Assembly: GCA_019358975.1 (NCBI GenBank)
Contig: JAHHIL010000001.1
Coordinates: 310,001 to 374,000 of the forward strand
Direction: 5' to 3'
Length of the DNA: 64,000 bases
Source of the DNA: Trichocoleus desertorum ATA4-8-CV12
GTDB taxonomy: Bacteria > Cyanobacteriota > Cyanobacteriia > FACHB-46
Below the pieces are notes generated by a model. The model made no database searches and was not told where the DNA came from. It worked only from the letters and a program-made list of their open reading frames with translations. The translations under genes and the position numbers were made by a program. This document shows, in pieces, positions 1 to 10,040 of this stretch; positions within the stretch are counted from its first letter, which is position 1; each line of letters begins with the position of its first letter.

Positions 1-3000
1 CGCACTCCAACCTTGGCTTGTTGTTTATCGAGTCCTAGCAAGTAGCACTGTTGACCCAATAATGCCTGCGTACCCCGCAACTCGATGCAACCTAGAACCT
101 TTTGCCACAATTGCTCTAAGTTCAATGCTGGTGCTGCCTCAACCGCTGGTATTTCGTTGTCTGGCGGCTCAAGCAATTCTGGCTCCTGGGCAGCCGCTTC
201 TTGCCAGGGACTGGGTTCGCCAATTGATGTAATGAGATCAGGCTCTGTAAATTCGATTGCTGCGGTTTCTACAACCGCGATCGCTTCATCAACTTCTACA
301 TGGCTTGTTTCCACTACTTCGGCTCTGCCATTTTGAGCGGTTGCAGGGACTACAGTTTCAGTGACGACTGCCACTTGAGTATGACTGTTGGTTGCTACCG
401 TTTCTGAAATCGATGCAACAGTGGGCTGAGGGGCAGAAATTAACGCACTCAAGGCACTGCGGAACTCCTGATCATGCAAAAGAGCTTGGGCGATCGCACC
501 TGCTAGTACTTCTAAGTCTGCCGCTGGCGTAGATAGCTGATGTTTACTGGCAACTTGACTCAACAATTGCTGCAACTGACTAGCCACACTGGGCATTTTG
601 CCATTAGAAGAGCTGGCTGTTGTTGTAGCGGGTAAGGGAGCTGAGGATGTTGGGACGGGTAGAATGGTTAGTGGAGTTGGAACCCACTGGGGCGCAATGG
701 GAGCAGGCGCAATGGGAGCAGCAGTCACAACGGGCGGTTCTACTCCCAACTCAGAAGGCAACAAACCCAGCAATGTGACTTCTAGCCACAGACGGGGTTG
801 AGTCGAGTTTTTAATCTGCACCTCTGCCGCTCGGAGATACTTTTGCCCTTCTAAAATTAGGGCGATCGGGAGTTGCTGAGCAAACTGACACAATTGTGCC
901 CAAGTCGGCGGCGTAATCGCGACTAAATCTCCTCGACTTGGCGCAGTTTTAGCAATGAGTAGGTCACGGTAAAAGCTGGCTAAGTTTTGCAGGACAATCA
1001 GGGGTTCTCGGCCCCGATTCATTAAGTGACGTGCCCCATCTAGAACCTGGGCAGGGTCATTGGTGGCGATCGCTTGCAATAAAGCTAGCAAGTCTCGCTC
1101 TGGCACCGCTCCGACTAAATCCCAGACCCGCTCAACTGTTACTTGCCCTTCCAGCAAACTCAGTTGATCCAATAAGCTCTCGGCATCGCGCAACCCACCC
1201 TGAGCAATTTGCCCCACCAACTGCACTGCATCGGGAGCAATATTGATTGATTCGTTGTGGGCGATCGCGCTCAAGTGATGCACCATTGCCTCTAGCGGAA
1301 TCCGCCGAAAGTCGAACCGCTGACACCGCGAAATAATGGTAGGCAATACTCGTTGTGGATCAGTCGTCGCCAGCACGAACACCACGCGATCGGGCGGTTC
1401 CTCCAACGTCTTTAGCAGCGCGTTGAATGCGGCGGTACTGAGCATATGGCAATTATGTGCCAGCAGCCCATTTGCCACAAAGTTATGGTTGTCTTCAACC
1501 TCAATGTCGTAAACTGCCTCAGCCCCATCGAGGCGGACAGATTCGACCTGCTCCAAATTTGTAGTCCATTGATGGGAGGGCGTACTGCCGCAAGTCTGAG
1601 AGCCATTTTCGGCTAGTATCTGCTCCCATTGCCAAGTAGGAGTAGATTTTGCCTCTACTGGCTCTTGTGTAACTTCTAACGTTGGCTGGGTAGCCGCTTT
1701 CCGTAAGCCACTCTGCAATAAGTTGATTTTCGTTGGTTGAGTAGCCTTCTGTATGGAGCTGAATTTGCGGGCTACCTTGGGGCGTGAGAGTGAGTGAGCC
1801 GTCGTCCATATACCACCAGGCCAATCCTTCAGGAGTGAGGCGCTGGAGCCAGTTTCGAGAAACTTGTTTCTGATTGCCGGATGGTCTGACGACCTGAAAA
1901 ACTTCTGCGAGTTGGGGGTGACAGGCAGTACTGCCACAGGCTGACTCTTGCCCGTATCCCTGATTGGTTGCGGTTCTAAGTTTGGGGCGTAATCCTGCCA
2001 AACGCTCAGCTTTGTATTCCAACCAAGCTTGCTGCTGGATACCATGAGTCCAGGACAAGCGGGGGAATCGGCTGTGGCGGTTGGGGTAGGTGATGGAGCA
2101 GTCGCCCAGTAAGGTGCCGTAGATGAGGCCCAAGGTTTTTGGAGACAGGGGGTCGAGGTTGTTAACGAAGTTGTGGGTACGAGTTGCCCAGATGCCGTGG
2201 CCTTGCTTGTAGGGGTGCCGTCGCCAATGGCTTTGGATACCTGCAACGGTTGCTGGTTGCGATCGCGTGAGCATATGCTGAGGAATGCTGAGTTGTTCTC
2301 CGCACCCACAAGCACAACAGGGTTCGTATTTTTCCAGTTCTGCCAGCTTCTCTGTGAGACTAAGGACTTTGTAGTGGTTTTGTTTTGTAGGGTGTTTCTG
2401 CCAGTAGCGTTGGATGTATTCGACACTAGTTTTGCCAGCGATCGTGGGGATTTGTAGTCTCTCGCCACAGCCACAGGCACATTCAGGTCTGAGTGGCTCC
2501 AACTCGGCCCACTTGGCCTGTAATTTTTCACAGGATGAGGCGACAGAATCTTCATCCCTGGCTTGAGTTCGGCGGCTGGTTTCCATCCTTGATCAGTCCG
2601 AATCAGGTGGTTTCCGGTACAGCGGATTTCTCGATTGGTGGTTTTGATCAGGTAAGTGGAGCGAACGCCTTGATCGAACCAGCGCAAAACTTGTTTGAAT
2701 TCCCAGGTTCCGGTTTGGTCATTGTAGCTGAGAACTTGTTTGCCTTGAATCTCAGGACTGTCAATGCGAATCAGTCCCTGACTAGTTTGTACTAATGAGT
2801 CTCCAGTTAAGCACTCGTCAATCACATACACTTTGTGGCGGCACTGGACGGGTGAAAATTGCGATCGCTCGATCAACTCCCGAATATTATCGACCCCGGT
2901 GTTACTAGCCGCGTCGATCTCGATTACGTCAAGGGCTGAACCGTTGGCGATCGCTCGGCAGACTTCACATTTGCCGCAAGGGGTTTCTGTGGGGGCATCA

Positions 3001-3200
3001 CTTTGCAGGCAGTTGAGAGATTTAGCCAAAATTCGGGCGCTGGAGGTCTTGCCCGTTCCTCTCGCTCCTGTAAACAGATAGGCAGGTGCAATCCGCTGTT
3101 GCCGTAGCGCGTTGGTTAGCGTGGTCGCGATCGCTTCTTGCCCCACCAGTTCTGCAAAAGTTTGGGGACGATATTTGTGGTGTAGCGGTTCGTAGGGCAT
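1..3200 (-). CDS. dnaX: DNA polymerase III gamma/tau subunit, intein-split, 3' end off window
   Basis: Clamp-loader ATPase of the replicative polymerase. The start is the ATG at 3200 (MPYEPLHHKYRPQTF), the usual DnaX N-terminus. Visible motifs are the Walker A GARGTGKT, a zinc-binding CGKCEVC segment, Walker B VYVIDE followed, after the intein, by CHMLSTAAFNALLKTLEEPP, and sensor-1 VLATTDP. The frame is open from 3200 to base 1 with no stop, so the gene runs off the left edge. The N-extein is 129 residues. The C-extein begins at 1451 with at least 483 residues, ending in a Ser/Thr/Val/Pro-rich linker (about 850 down to 130) before the tau-like C-terminal domain starts. The intein lies exactly in the Walker B DE/CH site, so ATPase activity should need splicing. 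No neighbouring gene shares its transcript in the window. Confidence 0.96.
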   Translation of the reverse strand, partial: MPYEPLHHKYRPQTFAELVGQEAIATTLTNALRQQRIAPAYLFTGARGTGKTSSARILAKSLNCLQSDAPTETPCGKCEVCRAIANGSALDVIEIDAASNTGVDNIRELIERSQFSPVQCRHKVYVIDECLTGDSLVQTSQGLIRIDSPEIQGKQVLSYNDQTGTWEFKQVLRWFDQGVRSTYLIKTTNREIRCTGNHLIRTDQGWKPAAELKPGMKILSPHPVKNYRPSGPSWSHSDLNVPVAVARDYKSPRSLAKLVSNTSNATGRNTLQNKTTTKSLVSQRSWQNWKNTNPVVLVGAENNSAFLSICSRDRNQQPLQVSKAIGDGTPTSKATASGQLVPTTSLTTSTPCLQKPWASSTAPYWATAPSPTPTATADSPACPGLMVSSSKLGWNTKLSVWQDYAPNLEPQPIRDTGKSQPVAVLPVTPNSQKFFRSSDHPAIRNKFLETGSSASLLKDWPGGIWTTAHSLSRPKVARKFSSIQKATQPTKINLLQSGLRKAATQPTLEVTQEPVEAKSTPTWQWEQILAENGSQTCGSTPSHQWTTNLEQVESVRLDGAEAVYDIEVEDNHNFVANGLLAHNCHMLSTAAFNALLKTLEEPPDRVVFVLATTDPQRVLPTIISRCQRFDFRRIPLEAMVHHLSAIAHNESINIAPDAVQLVGQIAQGGLRDAESLLDQLSLLEGQVTVERVWDLVGAVPERDLLALLQAIATNDPAQVLDGARHLMNRGREPLIVLQNLASFYRDLLIAKTAPSRGDLVAITPPTWAQLCQFAQQLPIALILEGQKYLRAAEVQIKNSTQPRLWLEVTLLGLLPSELGVEPPVVTAAPIAPAPIAPQWVPTPLTILPVPTSSAPLPATTTASSSNGKMPSVASQLQQLLSQVASKHQLSTPAADLEVLAGAIAQALLHDQEFRSALSALISAPQPTVASISETVATNSHTQVAVVTETVVPATAQNGRAEVVETSHVEVDEAIAVVETAAIEFTEPDLITSIGEPSPWQEAAAQEPELLEPPDNEIPAVEAAPALNLEQLWQKVLGCIELRGTQALLGQQCYLLGLDKQQAKVGV
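1452..2813 (-). other. DnaX intein (454 codons) in the dnaX frame
   Basis: Self-splicing protein insertion. In the dnaX frame it starts with Cys1 (CLTGDSLVQTSQG, block A) at 2813. Block B has the expected T-x-N-H (IRCTGNHLIRT) near 2615. Blocks F and G are AVYDIEVEDNHNFVANG and LLAHN, ending in Asn at 1452, and the +1 residue of the C-extein is Cys. All splicing residues are therefore present. Between about 2540 and 1560 the same frame continues without a stop but reads as a Ser/Thr/Pro-rich chain of roughly 330 residues that I cannot match to any domain. The endonuclease that normally fills this position is encoded in another frame (see the gene at 1519-2586). The splicing domain totals about 130 residues. 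That it splices despite the long linker is inference. Confidence 0.93.
1519..2586 (-). CDS. LAGLIDADG homing endonuclease nested out of frame inside the DnaX intein
   Basis: A 355-residue protein whose frame is shifted relative to dnaX/intein. LAGLIDADG motifs are LGLIYGTLLGDCSI (residues 152-165) and the second helix LAWWYMDDGSLT (255-266), each ending in an acidic residue, as in LAGLIDADG_2-type enzymes. Residues 35-65 and 88-125 form two similar modules, each with a C-x-CGCG-x-x-L/I core followed by IP and a W-x-x-HP end, possibly a metal-binding or DNA-recognition element. The ATG at 2586 lies 9 bases after an in-frame TGA; AAGG directly abuts it, so the ribosome site is weak and expression may rely on coupling or frameshifting. 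It should cleave intein-less dnaX alleles and promote homing; that is known of the family, not shown here. The last residues (to 1519) overlap the start of the C-terminal splicing segment. Confidence 0.88.
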   Translation of the reverse strand: METSRRTQARDEDSVASSCEKLQAKWAELEPLRPECACGCGERLQIPTIAGKTSVEYIQRYWQKHPTKQNHYKVLSLTEKLAELEKYEPCCACGCGEQLSIPQHMLTRSQPATVAGIQSHWRRHPYKQGHGIWATRTHNFVNNLDPLSPKTLGLIYGTLLGDCSITYPNRHSRFPRLSWTHGIQQQAWLEYKAERLAGLRPKLRTATNQGYGQESACGSTACHPQLAEVFQVVRPSGNQKQVSRNWLQRLTPEGLAWWYMDDGSLTLTPQGSPQIQLHTEGYSTNENQLIAEWLTESGYPANVRSYTRASRGKIYSYLAMGADTSRKWLSDLRQYALPSMDYKFGAGRICPPRWG

Positions 3201-3534: not shown

Positions 3535-6417
3535 ATGTTTCGCCTGTTGATTAAGCAGTGTTTCATGAACAGTTTTGGTCGTACCGATCCCAGCTTAAAT
3601 ACCTCTTTTCGCCTCACCCGTAGCCTGAGTTCTCTAGAAACAGGGGGATTTGGTCTCAGTGGGCTGCTGTTGTGGTTAGGCACGGCTCCTGCCATGCATC
3701 TAGACATGGGGCCACAAGCGCTTTGGGTGTGGATACCCACTGCCATTGTGGGCGTGATGCTAAATCTCCAGGTGAAGCATTTGGGAACTCGCTGGCCCGA
3801 CGTTTCGGGTGGTACACCCAACTATACAACTCGGCTCCTGAAGCATTATCCGGGCTTAGCTCAATATGTAGCGATCGGGTATTGGCTGGGTTGGGTGTCG
3901 GTGCCCGCCATGAATGCCATCATTCTGACCGATTTAATCAAAACCAACTTAGAACCGTTGGGCCTGACTTGTCCAGAGATGGCTCTGAAAATTGTATTTA
4001 CAGCTATTCCTTTTGTTGTGGCCTTCAGTGGCACGCGGGCTTTAGGCATTCTGCATTTATTTTTCGTGCTACCAGCGATTGGTTTCTTGTTGGCGTTTTG
4101 TGTCCAAGGCTGCGGCTGGCTAACCCTAGCTCCCAATAGTCCTGGGCTGTTTCCGACAGAGTGGTCTAGCTTGGATCTGCGAGATTGGACTAAGTGGGTT
4201 TTTGTGGCGATCTATGCGGCGTATGGCTGCGAAACGGCCTCTTCGTTTGTGGCCGATAGCCGTCGTCCTGCTTCTACGCTGCAATGTTTGTCGTTTGCTG
4301 CTTGGCTTTTACCCATTGTTTATATCGGTGGCTCTTGGGTGCTGATGCGATTGACCCCTGCTACAGGCGTAGGAGACAGCGCCTTTTTGAATTTAATCGC
4401 AGCGGCTCAACCTTTTTGGGGTCAACAAGCCCAAGTTTTGGTTACTTTTTTAATTGCCTCTGGATGTCTATTGAGTTCTGCGACAGCCGTTTCTAATGCG
4501 CCGCGAGTCTTATACCAACTTGCCTTAGATGGCTACTTGGCTCCTGTGTTTGGGGTGGTTTCTCGGCGGGGTGTATTGGGGCCGAGTTTGGCTTTTACAG
4601 GGCTTTTGAGCGTGGCCTGCCTGATCTGGGGGGATGTGACCAGAGTCGTCATGGTGACGGGGACAGGCTACTTGAGCAGCATGATTGGTATTCATTTGGG
4701 CATGTGGCTACGGCGAGGACATCCAGAAGCCTTGTGGCCGCGCTGGTCCCTGGTCTTTTGTATCGTAGAAAGTTTGGTGTTAGTGATAGGGGGGCTGGCC
4801 TGGAATGGGCAAGACCTGTTTATGGGGCTGCTGTTGCCCATCAGTATTTTGCTGCTGGATCAAGGGCTACGTCGTACGGCAATTCCTGGGTTACGAGCGG
4901 AATGGTGGATACGACGCTATCAGAGGCGGCCCCATCGGCAAGTCTCGGACTTGATGCTGACGCAGATTTGCATTCTGATCTTGCTCATTTGTAGTGCGCT
5001 CACGATTGGCTGGGGAGTGCGGACTTTATTAGATGGTATTGCTTTCGACAGTAATGCCAATTTGTTTGTGGTGCTGCTGCTGGCGATCGCCTTTGTCGGA
5101 GTGGCGATCGCTTGCTGGACCAGTTTGCCCCAAGTAGCAGAGGTGATGGAGGCCCAGGAAGCGGCAGAACATTTCTTTAATATTGCTCAAGATGCCATCG
5201 TAGTCGTAGATGAAGCTGGGCTGATTCAGCGCTTGAACCCAGCCGCTACAGGTTTGTTCGGAATGAAGCCACGAGATGTATTAGGACATCCTTTAAGCCA
5301 ATATTTAGCGGGTCTAGCTGAGTATCCGCAGCATTGGGCGATTCGCAGTGAGCAAAGGCTGATACAGGCTGCCCAAACCAAGCTGTTAGATGTTTCGGTT
5401 AGCGATCGCGTCAATTCTCAGCTAAGAGAGTATGTAGTGATTTTGCGAGACATCACGGAGCGTCAGCAAGCTGAAGTAGTCCTGCGCCAATCGGAAGCGC
5501 AATCTAGACAGCAGAACCAAGCCCTAGAACAAACGCTGCGGGAATTGCAAAGAACCCAAGCGCAACTCATCCAAACCGAGAAACTGTCTTCTTTAGGGCA
5601 ACTGGTGGCGGGGGTAGCGCATGAGATTAATAACCCCGTGAATTTTATTCATGGCAACCTCAGCCACGCCGACAAGTACACGCAAAACCTGCTCGATTTA
5701 ATCCAGCTTTACCAAAAGCACTATCCTGATCCGGTACCAGAAATTGAGACCGAGATTGACACGATTGACTTAGGGTTTTTGGCTGAAGATTTACCCAAAT
5801 TGCTGAGTTCGATGCAGGTGGGCACCGAGCGGATTCAGAAAATTGTCTTAGCTTTGCGGAATTTCTCGCGCATGGATGAGGCGGATATGAAAGCGATCGA
5901 TATTCACGCTGGATTAGAAAGTACGCTGATGATTTTGCAAAATCGCTTGAAACCGAAGTCTGACCAATTTGTGATCCAAATTGAGCAAGATTACGGCGAT
6001 TTGCCTTTGGTGGAATGCTACGCGGGGCAGCTCAACCAAGTGTTTATGAATATTCTGACCAACGCGATCGATGCTTTAGAGGAGTACGACAAGCAACGCC
6101 CTTCAGCGGCACGAGAACAAAAGCCTAGCACCATTCGCATTCGCACTCTGATGACAGAAAATCAACAGGTGCAAATTTGCATTGCTGATAATGGGCCAGG
6201 AATTCCACTGCATTTCCAGCCTCGGCTCTTCGATCCGTTCTTTACAACTAAAGCGATCGGCAAAGGGACTGGCTTAGGTTTATCGATTAGCTATGGCATC
6301 ATCACTGAGAAACATGGTGGCAATCTGAAGTGCATTTCAGCTCCCGGTGAAGGCACCGAATTTGTAATCGAAATTCCCCTAAGCCAAACGGCACACCTGT
6401 CGCGAGAAGCAACCTAA
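3535..6417 (+). CDS. APC-family permease fused to a PAS-histidine kinase
   Basis: A 960-residue fusion. Residues about 30-450 form an amino-acid/polyamine permease-like domain with about 12 hydrophobic segments, including the early glycine-rich stretch [15 protein letters not shown] and a conserved-looking [12 protein letters not shown] segment. Two further helices (about 475-500 and 510-530) lead into a PAS domain (542-642), a coiled coil (643-680), the H-box [17 protein letters not shown] with phospho-accepting His696, and a HATPase domain with N-box [19 protein letters not shown], and [16 protein letters not shown]. The kinase subtype with EDLPKLL...GTERI between the H- and N-boxes is common in cyanobacteria. 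It may sense a transported solute or transport flux, as proposed for transporter-kinases such as CbrA, but its permease belongs to another superfamily. No response regulator is adjacent. An alternative start is ATG 3568. Confidence 0.88.
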
Positions 6418-6465: not shown

Positions 6466-9400
6466 TTAACTGGCTTGTTGTAGTTCGGCGTAGTGCCAAC
6501 GGACGACATTCGCTTCGGTGTGGCTGACTAAAATGCCGAGGGATTCTAGGCTTTCCAGATGGTCAGCGATCGCTTGTTTTTTCCGGGCAGCTCCTTTGAA
6601 TTGCGCCACGACTTGCTCCACTGTCCATTCACCGCCGTTGGTTCGCAACAAGTCTCGAATGGCAGCGAGTTGGTCTTTGGGTTTCTTGGGCCACGCGACT
6701 TGCCCCCCTAGCCCCCCAATGCTGGGGGGAACCGGATCTTCCAAGTCCCCCAGTATTGGGGGATTTAGGGGGCTTTCTGCGCTGCTGTTCTCAACTTCAA
6801 CTCCAGCAATTTCACCTTGAACTGTAGTTTCAGTCGCGGCTCCGATGGTTTGCGGTGCTTGATATTCAGGCCGTAGCCAGCGGATTAACCCGTTGCGTTC
6901 TTCTTCGGCGCGTTCGGCGTTAAGGGTGACTAATTTTTCTAAGATTTCGTCGTCGGAGAGGTTTGCTGCCCAACCATACGCCTCGAATACTGCTGCATCT
7001 AAATCATCATGAATTTGTTTGAGGGTGGAAACGAGGGCTTTGTCGTTGTAGGCGCGATCGCTATCGGTAAATGCTTGCCCCGATCGCAGCTTTTCCAGCA
7101 GGTTATACATCCCGGTAATGGTCACGTCTGGATGCACTGCCTGAACTCGCTTCCGATGACTATCTAATTTCTCACCCAATTCTCGAATTTTTTGTTTTTG
7201 CTCTGGCGTTGGGTCAGGAAATGGAAACGGATCGAAGCAACGAGTTTTGTTGTAGCGTGGTCTATCTTCTAGTGTTCCACCTGCTGCTAACGACCAAATA
7301 ACATGAACTCGGCTCGAAAGTACACCTAAGAAGTAAGCATCCTCTAGAGCGATCGCTACCAACATATTGTCTGCAAGTATGCTTGCATCAAGAAAGACAA
7401 ATATTCGATGTTTACTAGTCTCCACAGTTGCAATGTATCGCCTCAAACCCTTTAAGGCTGTTCTGATTTCAGTTCTAGGGCGACCAAATATCCACCAGTT
7501 TTCACGTAGGCTTTTGTCTCGATTAGCGTCTCTTTCTGGTTTAACCTTCTCTAATATCCACTGGTACGCTTTGGGATAACCCTTTTGAGCTTTGTCAAGA
7601 GTTAGTCCAAATAAATCAATAACCTTAGCATTACGGGATTTCTGCAATAGGTCTCGACCATTGATATACGAAAAAAGCACTTCGGATTCAACTTTTAAGA
7701 AATCATTTTCATCAAGAATAAATCCTGACCCAAATAGCATTACCCCACGGCTGGAAATATTGCTGTTAGCTTTTAATAGATGAGTATTAGAAATATCTGC
7801 CCCAGCTTGTAGTCCACTAAAAATCTTTCCGACATTTTGCCATTGAATGCTGATTTTGTCAGCTGAATCTTCTGGAACCCTTGCCTCAGCCTCAGCTACA
7901 ACAATTCCTAATTGAGAAATTCTTATAAGCTTTTGAGTGCCTTCCGCTTCTCCAGTAGTCATCGCAATTCTGACAGCAGCCCCTTGATCTGTCCAAGGAT
8001 GATCAGGAATTGCAAAAAACAACTTAAGCGGATTCTTCTCATTTTGGTGAAAATCAATAACGCTTCTTTGTCTGACTTGCCGAATACTATTGGTGGTAAT
8101 AAATCCAAACCGTTGAATTTCACTCGATCGCACTAATTCAGCCGCTTTGTGCCACCAATACATCACATAATCAACCGTTTCAGGCACATCTTTGTAGAGC
8201 GATCGCAGCGTTTCAGCATAGCCATCCCCCAGCATTTCCCGCATTCGGGCATTGCCAATAAACGGCGGATTTGAGATCACATAATCCGCTTGGGGCCAGG
8301 TTGCAGAGCGAGGATTGAGGTAGCGATAAATTGGGATTTGATCTGATGGATCAGGCACCGCTTCACTTGTCACCGAATGCTTCATCGTGCGACCACCCCA
8401 GCGAGTTCGAGGTAGTTGCGTCACCGGATCGATCGCGGGTTCCTTACCGTCATAAGCCAGTACTGCATCCCGACACTCAATATTGTGGTACTCCCGCAGA
8501 ATCGGTTCCGGTGGAGCCACCTCACCAAAACGCTTAAAGTGCCATTGCAAATAACCAATCCAGATTACGAGGTCAGCGATCGCCGCTGCTCTGGGGTTTA
8601 GCTCAATCCCCAAAAACTGCGACGGGTTTACCTGCTCAAAATCCAACACCAACTGCGCCTGACCCGTAATATCAGCCAAACGCCGCAACACCTCAGACTC
8701 CAAACTTTTCAGCAAATCCAGCGTCACATACAAGAAATTCCCCGAACCACAAGCAGGGTCAAGAATCTTCACCTCTCGCAGCTCCCGCAAAAAATCTTGA
8801 ATTAGCGCGATCGCTTTGTTTTTCTGAGCTTTCGTCGGTTCTTGGTCGCCATTATCCAGCGCTTGCTTTACCTCCGCTTGCACCAAATCCCAGCGATCGC
8901 GCAACGGCTCCATCACCACCGGACGCACCAACCGCTCCACATAAGATCTCGGCGTGTAGTGTGCCCCCAACTTGCTCCGCTCCTTCGGGTCTAGCGCTCG
9001 CTCTAGCAACGTGCCAAAAATCGCAGGCTCCACATGCCGCCAATCCTTCTTCGCTGCTCTCAGCAGTACCTGTAGCTGCTCTGCCGTCAAATCCAACGCT
9101 GAGCCATCGGCAAACAACCCGCCATTAAACCGGGGAATCGTATTAAACCCGAAGTTACCCCCAGCATTCATCGTCTGCCAGAAAGCCTCGACTTCTGCCT
9201 TAAAAGTGCGTGGTTTTGGGAGCCAACGCTCCTCCAACGCTTGCGTAAAAATGTGTTCCTTCAGCAACTCCACATCTTCCGCAAACATCGTAAACAGACA
9301 CCGCATCAAGAAATGCGCCACCAACTGCGGTTCATGCTGCTTTTCTAGCAGCTTTGCCAACTCCGCCAGATCACTCGCCACCTCTCGCGTCACCCGTGCG

Positions 9401-9963
9401 GCAATCTTTTCGGGGTTGCGTTTTTGCGGATCAGTAAAAACATCTACAAAGAAATCAAACGTCTCTGGCTCTAACAGTTGGTCAAGGAAAATCTCGCGCC
9501 GCGCCCCATATCCGCCATAGTCACCACTAAACCCCAACCAGACCTCAAAGTGTGAACCAATATCGCAAGTCAGCAAAAACGGCGGCTTCGAGTCTAAATT
9601 GCGCGTGTAAGCCAACCCCTGCACAAACGCCTTTTCCATTTCCTTGCGGTAGGTGGCAGTGCCCCGCTTTGCCATCCCTTTCCCCGCGATCGTGCCCCCT
9701 TGCTTCGCCTCCAGCAAAAAATGCTCAGTTTTGTAAAAGTCAATAAACCCCGTCGTCACCTTGCCACTAGGATGCGGGATTTTTACATCTTTCTCAAAGC
9801 AATAGCGATCGCCTGCCACACTTCCTTTGGGGGGCGGCGGCACAACTCCCAGCGCTACACACAAATCTCGCAAAAATGAGTCTTTATTCGCTCTCTCGTC
9901 GCCACTAGAGCCTTTCCAATTGCTCAAAAATGCCTGAACTCGCGCTAAATCAGACTCATTCAT
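6466..9963 (-). CDS. MmeI-like (Type IIL) restriction-modification protein
   Basis: A single-chain nuclease-methyltransferase of 1165 residues from ATG 9963; an ATG at 10038 would add 25 residues but reads into a repeat. The N-terminal nuclease motif is FIDFYKTEHFLLEAK (D75, E85-x-K87), matching the D-x9-E-x-K of MmeI. A helical spacer follows, then KLGAHYTP, motif I DPACGSGNFLY (402-412), motif IV NPPF (565-568) of a gamma-class N6-adenine methyltransferase, then a variable target-recognition region and a C-terminal helical segment. Residues about 1064-1088 are encoded by a palindromic repeat, and the final 75 residues look like a winged helix (QLAAIRDLLRTNGGEWTVEQ). MmeI-type enzymes are usually 900-1000 residues, so this one is extended. 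No separate specificity or helicase gene lies beside it. It likely methylates and cuts host and foreign DNA at its own recognition sequence. Confidence 0.85.
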   Translation of the reverse strand: MNESDLARVQAFLSNWKGSSGDERANKDSFLRDLCVALGVVPPPPKGSVAGDRYCFEKDVKIPHPSGKVTTGFIDFYKTEHFLLEAKQGGTIAGKGMAKRGTATYRKEMEKAFVQGLAYTRNLDSKPPFLLTCDIGSHFEVWLGFSGDYGGYGARREIFLDQLLEPETFDFFVDVFTDPQKRNPEKIAARVTREVASDLAELAKLLEKQHEPQLVAHFLMRCLFTMFAEDVELLKEHIFTQALEERWLPKPRTFKAEVEAFWQTMNAGGNFGFNTIPRFNGGLFADGSALDLTAEQLQVLLRAAKKDWRHVEPAIFGTLLERALDPKERSKLGAHYTPRSYVERLVRPVVMEPLRDRWDLVQAEVKQALDNGDQEPTKAQKNKAIALIQDFLRELREVKILDPACGSGNFLYVTLDLLKSLESEVLRRLADITGQAQLVLDFEQVNPSQFLGIELNPRAAAIADLVIWIGYLQWHFKRFGEVAPPEPILREYHNIECRDAVLAYDGKEPAIDPVTQLPRTRWGGRTMKHSVTSEAVPDPSDQIPIYRYLNPRSATWPQADYVISNPPFIGNARMREMLGDGYAETLRSLYKDVPETVDYVMYWWHKAAELVRSSEIQRFGFITTNSIRQVRQRSVIDFHQNEKNPLKLFFAIPDHPWTDQGAAVRIAMTTGEAEGTQKLIRISQLGIVVAEAEARVPEDSADKISIQWQNVGKIFSGLQAGADISNTHLLKANSNISSRGVMLFGSGFILDENDFLKVESEVLFSYINGRDLLQKSRNAKVIDLFGLTLDKAQKGYPKAYQWILEKVKPERDANRDKSLRENWWIFGRPRTEIRTALKGLRRYIATVETSKHRIFVFLDASILADNMLVAIALEDAYFLGVLSSRVHVIWSLAAGGTLEDRPRYNKTRCFDPFPFPDPTPEQKQKIRELGEKLDSHRKRVQAVHPDVTITGMYNLLEKLRSGQAFTDSDRAYNDKALVSTLKQIHDDLDAAVFEAYGWAANLSDDEILEKLVTLNAERAEEERNGLIRWLRPEYQAPQTIGAATETTVQGEIAGVEVENSSAESPLNPPILGDLEDPVPPSIGGLGGQVAWPKKPKDQLAAIRDLLRTNGGEWTVEQVVAQFKGAARKKQAIADHLESLESLGILVSHTEANVVRWHYAELQQAS
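6702..6773. repeat. Palindromic C/G-run repeat inside the MmeI-like gene
   Basis: About 72 bases with terminal gccccccta/ttagggggc and two inner inverted segments (ccccccaatgctgggggg and cccccagtattggggg). It is in frame and encodes PLNPPILGD and PPSIGGLGG in the protein. Close relatives are at 10041-10111 and, partly, 10164-10192. Known as a type: short palindromic dispersed repeats of cyanobacteria, sometimes found within genes. Confidence 0.85.
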
Positions 9964-10040
9964 GCCGCAATTCTCAAATCTGGCCGTCAATCCTGTTTTA
10001 GCTTGCCCAAGCTCGATAGGCAGCGATCGCCTCAGCACCA

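Follow-up and report, generated by a model that had tools for sequence, protein, structure and literature searches.

The 64,000 nucleotide stretch of Trichocoleus desertorum ATA4-8-CV12 DNA analysed here (the window) carries, at positions 3535-6417 of the forward strand, a single unbroken open reading frame of 960 amino acids with an ATG start, in which a permease precedes a histidine kinase. This locus raises the question of whether the permease still transports a substrate and thereby drives the kinase, as proposed in the initial annotation, or whether it has been retained as a sensor. The following features can be distinguished:

3535-6417, + strand: whole gene (960 amino acids), comprising a permease module, a transmembrane hairpin, a PAS domain and a histidine kinase
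3604-4923, + strand: APC-fold permease domain, residues 24-463 (AlphaFold2 model, structure matches and Pfam AA_permease at 41-369)
4951-5124, + strand: extra TM13-TM14 hairpin, residues 473-530 (model; hydropathy peaks at 473-491 and 510-528)
5107-5133, + strand: IACWTSLPQ motif, residues 525-533, at the end of TM14 and the start of the cytoplasmic helix (alignment of rows)
5173-5463, + strand: PAS domain, residues 547-643 (Pfam PAS at 547-593, PAS_4 to 643)
5593-5670, + strand: HisKA domain, residues 687-712, with the phospho-acceptor His696 (Pfam and motif)
6028-6384, + strand: HATPase_c domain, residues 832-950 (Pfam)

At least one Pfam model exceeded its cut-off for each of the AA_permease, PAS, HisKA and HATPase_c domains, with AA_permease (PF00324) scoring 33.1 bits against a cut-off of 24.6 (3.3e-8; residues 41-369), and no NCBIfam model above its cut-off was among the matches listed for the whole protein. 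The H, N, D and G motifs of the kinase are all present (HEINNP with His696, the N box at 839, DNGPGIP at 885 and GKGTGLG at 909). An AlphaFold2 model of residues 1-545, built from an alignment of 44 rows (pLDDT 88.4; pTM 0.87), was compared against solved structures using Foldseek and VIA-align. Residues 23-463 match solved transporters of the twelve-helix APC fold at Z values of 34-36, including y+LAT1 (8xyj; Z 35.8, rmsd 3.5, 430 aligned), AdiC (3l1l; Z 34.8, rmsd 3.2, 393 aligned) and LAT1 (Z 35.2). The permease module of the window protein is a complete APC fold. Pfam reported AA_permease but no SLC5-type family in the protein, SLC5 entries are absent among the best 50 structure matches listed for the model, and 28/44 members match PF00324 at E ≤ 0.001. 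Further structure matches include KimA (8b71; Z 35.3) and NKCC1 (9c0e; Z 33.1), and the presence of KimA and NKCC/KCC transporters among the best fold matches would suit a sensor of physical state (ions, osmotic strength or membrane tension) rather than of an organic ligand, by analogy with the ion and potassium transporters sharing the fold. However, a common fold does not reveal function, equal scores are reached by y+LAT1, LAT1 and AdiC, and the one significant PDB match by sequence is LysP (9eyd; E 6.3e-6), and sensing of this kind is considered highly improbable.

Beyond the twelve-helix core, residues 473-545 form two more hydrophobic helices leading into a cytoplasmic helix, on the basis of both the model and hydropathy. 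This TM13-TM14 hairpin is barely covered by the permease matches among the structure matches listed, and a profile of the hairpin found nothing stronger than a weak match at E 0.0021 to a GPCR and no supported Pfam family, with no STAC entry among the matches listed against PDB sequences. These weak matches are attributed to a fortuitous resemblance between hydrophobic helices. The hairpin is family-specific.

A single-sequence search with residues 1-523 of the window protein against 386 genomes of the phylum gave a match in 37 genomes, and a profile search yielded some match at E ≤ 1e-5 in 44 of the 386. Reading of the loci distinguished 44 intact copies of the permease module, window included, beside decayed fragments, and no free-standing copy was seen in the 386 genomes. 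In the profile search the intact members scored 727-882 bits and the best free-standing permeases 42 bits, confined to profile positions 278-429, with the matches scoring below the decayed fragments being short or partial. Every intact copy (44/44) is fused to a signalling output, which argues that the fusion did not arise by chance; within the 386-genome sample the module occurs solely in fused form. Together with the single frame, the Pfam domains and the complete fold, this upholds the initial description of a full APC-type permease fused to PAS and kinase modules. The genome of T. desertorum itself contains one copy of the module and one ordinary APC permease.

When contigs of named genomes were scanned with the single protein no relative was found; searched with the permease alignment, the same contigs yielded 231 relatives. 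The eighty that were kept all belong to the Cyanobacteriota, and span at least eight orders and twenty-four named genera. Plasmids provided just three weak, ordinary-permease-like matches (23 % identity). Three permease-kinase genes lie in tandem in one genome (L053, 5488-14745). Furthermore, decayed copies with internal stops (L080-L083 and other fragments) occur in several genomes, so that the gene is dispensable and has been lost repeatedly.

Among the 44 rows the outputs comprise thirty-eight HisKA and HATPase_c kinases and six GGDEF and EAL proteins; a receiver domain occurs in seven rows. The larger set of 122 rows, in which a genome is sometimes entered twice (for example as L042 and L098) and rows outside the domain scans were classed by motif, contains ninety-four HisKA kinases, twenty-three GGDEF-EAL proteins, two SpoIIE-type phosphatases (L109 and L110), one HisKA_2 kinase (L102) and two truncated frames (L101 and L112), which were excluded from output counts on trees. 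Four output types (HisKA kinases, a HisKA_2 kinase, GGDEF-EAL proteins and SpoIIE-type phosphatases) are thus found behind the same module. Permease trees were constructed with FastTree for all 122 rows and with IQ-TREE for the 55 rows under 78 % identity. At least five changes of output class are required in both sets, while the finer architecture changes 15 and 16 times on the two trees. In the IQ-TREE phylogeny the kinase L045 and the GGDEF-EAL protein L156 are joined by a branch with support of 96/84, and the SpoIIE pair groups with two kinases (100/99). The permease module behaves as a portable input module. The kinase half of the window protein shares 67 % identity with a kinase of its own genome that has another sensor and 63 % with the best-scoring other family member, and being at least as close to kinases of its own genome it appears to be a general cassette, with the permease as the specific part.

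A PAS domain (PF00989) was matched in 35/44 rows, and CbrA signalling is reported to work without its SLC5 domain (PMC7096432). Both would accord with a permease module acting mainly as an anchor or dimerisation platform, with the PAS domain or the cytoplasm as the source of the signal. However, seven of the 44 members have no PAS domain between module and kinase, their His motif following 33-44 residues after the module, and a module of about 500 residues that retains 47-62 % identity and a conserved core goes far beyond what an anchor needs. Such a role is considered improbable.

The substrate, gate and proton-coupling residues of LysP were taken from PMC12764776 (the E. coli numbering is one higher, as judged from a motif) and were located in the 122 rows. 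A profile-profile alignment joined the module with seven E. coli APC transporters at a probability of 97.9 %. Both aromatic gates have aromatic counterparts: the Trp gate corresponds to W120 (122/122 rows) and the Phe gate to Y227 (118/122). The substrate-contacting Gln of TM6 is replaced by Y230 (Tyr in 113/122 rows), the acidic residue of TM3 by N127 (94/122; Tyr in 25/122), and the proton-coupling Lys by A181 (117/122), this position being Ala, Ser or Thr in all 122 rows and never Lys. A proton-coupling Lys is absent from many real APC transporters. Residue 127 (nucleotides 3913-3915) corresponds by this mapping to a substrate contact of LysP. The 25 rows with Tyr there equal in number the clade containing the GGDEF-EAL proteins, and a change of ligand with this clade is possible, as judged by the equal row number and not row by row.

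The glycine loop of TM1 was also considered. None of the 122 rows has G-x-G or G-x-S at positions 44-49. Alignment of TM1 is ambiguous here: the local hhalign alignment, which starts just past the loop, agrees with the end points of the structure matches in placing the glycines at 44-48, whereas global hhalign places the TM1 GxG at 41-43 (L41-[TS]42-G43). The window protein has G-F-G at residues 38-40. A G-x-G/S is found within the first 60 residues of all seven E. coli and all sixteen cyanobacterial control permeases. An earlier suggestion that the invariant E35 stands in for a glycine of this motif was dropped, since the loop is placed at 44-48 by local hhalign as well as by the end points of the structure matches. 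W47 is present in 118/122 rows. TM6 forms a single unbroken helix in the model (215-241), while in a control model of the ordinary APC permease from the same genome, built from 16 rows, it is broken at 216-218. As TM1 is unbroken in both models they are uninformative on a break in this helix, and the reading of an unbroken TM1 as a lost substrate loop was discarded.

In place of the LysP substrate and coupling residues there is thus a strongly conserved, family-specific aromatic centre. The site is conserved but rebuilt which, we infer, is more in keeping with a receptor than with a transporter. The retention of substrate-site residues is not borne out, given the replaced Lys and TM6 Gln, the lack of G-x-[GS] at 44-49 (subject to the uncertain alignment) and the unbroken TM6. 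From these residues, transport by the module has probably been lost, with net transport weak or absent, and their replacement fits a role as membrane sensor only, which the initial annotation named as an outcome that would refute its proposal. The initial proposal of a sensor in which transport drives signalling can thus be retained in part: a membrane sensor is favoured by the fold, the conserved fusion and the exchange of outputs, but signalling driven by transport is not supported by the residues that replace those of LysP.

A true transceptor, in which the APC domain still transports and its transport cycle or substrate occupancy sets the kinase, as has been suggested for CbrA, nevertheless merits consideration. 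The fold is complete and the gates W120 and Y227 as well as E233 are conserved; moreover, the fused LeuT-fold domain of CbrA can transport (PMC7096432, PMC13022988). Set against this are the replaced proton-coupling Lys and TM6 substrate residues, the unbroken TM6 in the model, the absence of GxG where it is expected and the lack of a free-standing transporter version in the 386 genomes, and even the SLC5 domain of CbrA is reported to be dispensable for signal transduction (PMC7096432). A transceptor is accordingly regarded as unlikely.

The preferred reading, with a probability of roughly 0.6, is that the window protein is a receptor kinase with a retired APC transporter as its sensor. The retained aromatic gates (W120 and Y227) count against it, as a working transporter would keep them. 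The stretch [IV]ACWT[ST]LPQ at the end of the last helix is the most constant of the module whatever the output, and A526, W528, T529 and Q533 are invariant in all 44 rows, which were found with a query (1-523) that excludes it. Conservation of this motif was counted in the 44 rows only, as the 80 contig loci were located by patterns that include ACWT[ST]LPQ. The form IACWTTLPQ is found in 23/23 GGDEF-EAL members and IACWTSLPQ in 60/94 kinases. In the model ACWTSLPQ is located where TM14 exits the membrane, and the end of this helix would be the natural point of transmission.

As a receptor, the module would bind a small ligand at a central site formed by W47, Y116, W120, Y227, Y230 and E233. 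The ligand would most likely be an amino acid or amine, a guess that follows from the ancestry of the module. Binding would shift the bundle against the scaffold helices, and the conserved cytoplasmic face, with R324, Q328 and D332 where TM8 ends, together with ACWTSLPQ at the close of TM14 would relay this change to the helix entering the PAS domain. The resulting change in the PAS domain would set the autophosphorylation of His696, and the acceptor of the phosphoryl group would be encoded elsewhere in the genome. A broader proposal, that of a cyanobacterial receptor family in which a whole APC transporter with its own aromatic site, a transmembrane hairpin as hinge and transport lost forms a portable input that drives histidine kinases, c-di-GMP enzymes or a SpoIIE-type phosphatase, is put forward tentatively, at slightly less than even odds.

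A conserved partner regulator, which the initial annotation suggested seeking across genomes, is present in two kinase subclasses but not in that of the window protein. In 8/9 loci of the HEIRNP subclass the kinase gene is followed after 0-26 bp by a CheY-like receiver of 120-125 amino acids in the same orientation (the one scanned matched Response_reg at 5.2e-25), and a gene of a receiver-containing cluster lies close downstream on the same strand in 9/12 loci of the HELRTP subclass. For the subclass to which the window protein belongs (HEINNP with PAS) there is no conserved partner across 51 loci, nor a conserved metabolic neighbourhood pointing to a ligand. With dnaX and an MmeI-like restriction-modification gene as its neighbours, the window gene encodes an orphan kinase. 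The dnaX gene (3-3200, - strand) incorporates an intein (PF14890; residues 151-583), and within the intein-coding stretch lies, on the same strand but out of frame, an open reading frame (1519-2586, - strand) for a LAGLIDADG_2 homing endonuclease (1.2e-21), so that intein and endonuclease represent overlapping coding. The MmeI-like gene (6466-10038, - strand), convergent with the permease-kinase gene, encodes a single-chain restriction-modification protein (MmeI_N, hel, Mtase and TRD). An ABC-transporter neighbourhood noted at thirteen loci was dropped, as it comprises an assortment of unrelated ABC ATPases. In 22/23 GGDEF-EAL loci, all of one clade, the module gene is accompanied at a distance of 67-1003 bp by a convergent gene for histidine decarboxylase (for example L148, 5423-6571; PRK02769.1 in the one scanned); this is possibly a hint at an amine or amino acid ligand, or plain synteny within a single clade.

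The nearest design to the window protein is that of the SLC5/STAC kinases (CbrA and CrbS), which likewise combine a LeuT-fold transporter domain with PAS and histidine kinase domains. They differ in the transporter family and in their linker, a cytoplasmic STAC four-helix bundle rather than a transmembrane hairpin, and CbrA transports histidine, whereas the window protein has probably lost transport. The SSS/SLC5 family is placed in the APC superfamily in TCDB. The SLC5 domain of CbrA also has a LeuT-type fold (PMC13022988), and the initial statement that CbrA uses another transporter superfamily is therefore doubtful; another transporter family would be more apt. SLC5-STAC modules have also been reported ahead of diguanylate cyclases (PMC7096432). 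Ks-Amt5, an ammonium sensor whose transport is reported lost (PMC5764959), is a transporter turned kinase-linked sensor, as proposed here, but has the Amt trimer fold, no PAS domain and one known output type. Similarly, the yeast Ssy1 is a receptor derived from an APC-type (YAT) permease, its transport being undetectable (PMC12958826), but is eukaryotic and signals via Ptr3 and Ssy5 with no fused enzyme. LysP, the best PDB sequence match, is an APC permease that serves as signalling input with CadC (PMC12764776), but its regulator is a separate protein and it transports lysine.

No description of a fusion between an APC permease and a kinase or GGDEF-EAL protein was found in the literature searched, subscription papers and annotation databases apart, and automatic annotations elsewhere may well show such a fusion. 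The APC permease module, the transmembrane hairpin in place of STAC, the four output types and the cyanobacterial range among the relatives examined set this protein apart from the known systems. Transporter-derived receptors are few in bacteria. With one module placed before four output chemistries, and some members lacking a PAS domain, whether transport itself or only occupancy by the ligand drives the signalling of such receptors becomes testable by output swapping. If the broader proposal is true, a sense for amino acids or amines would be used across signalling chemistries, and the module would be a candidate organic-nutrient sense in cyanobacteria.
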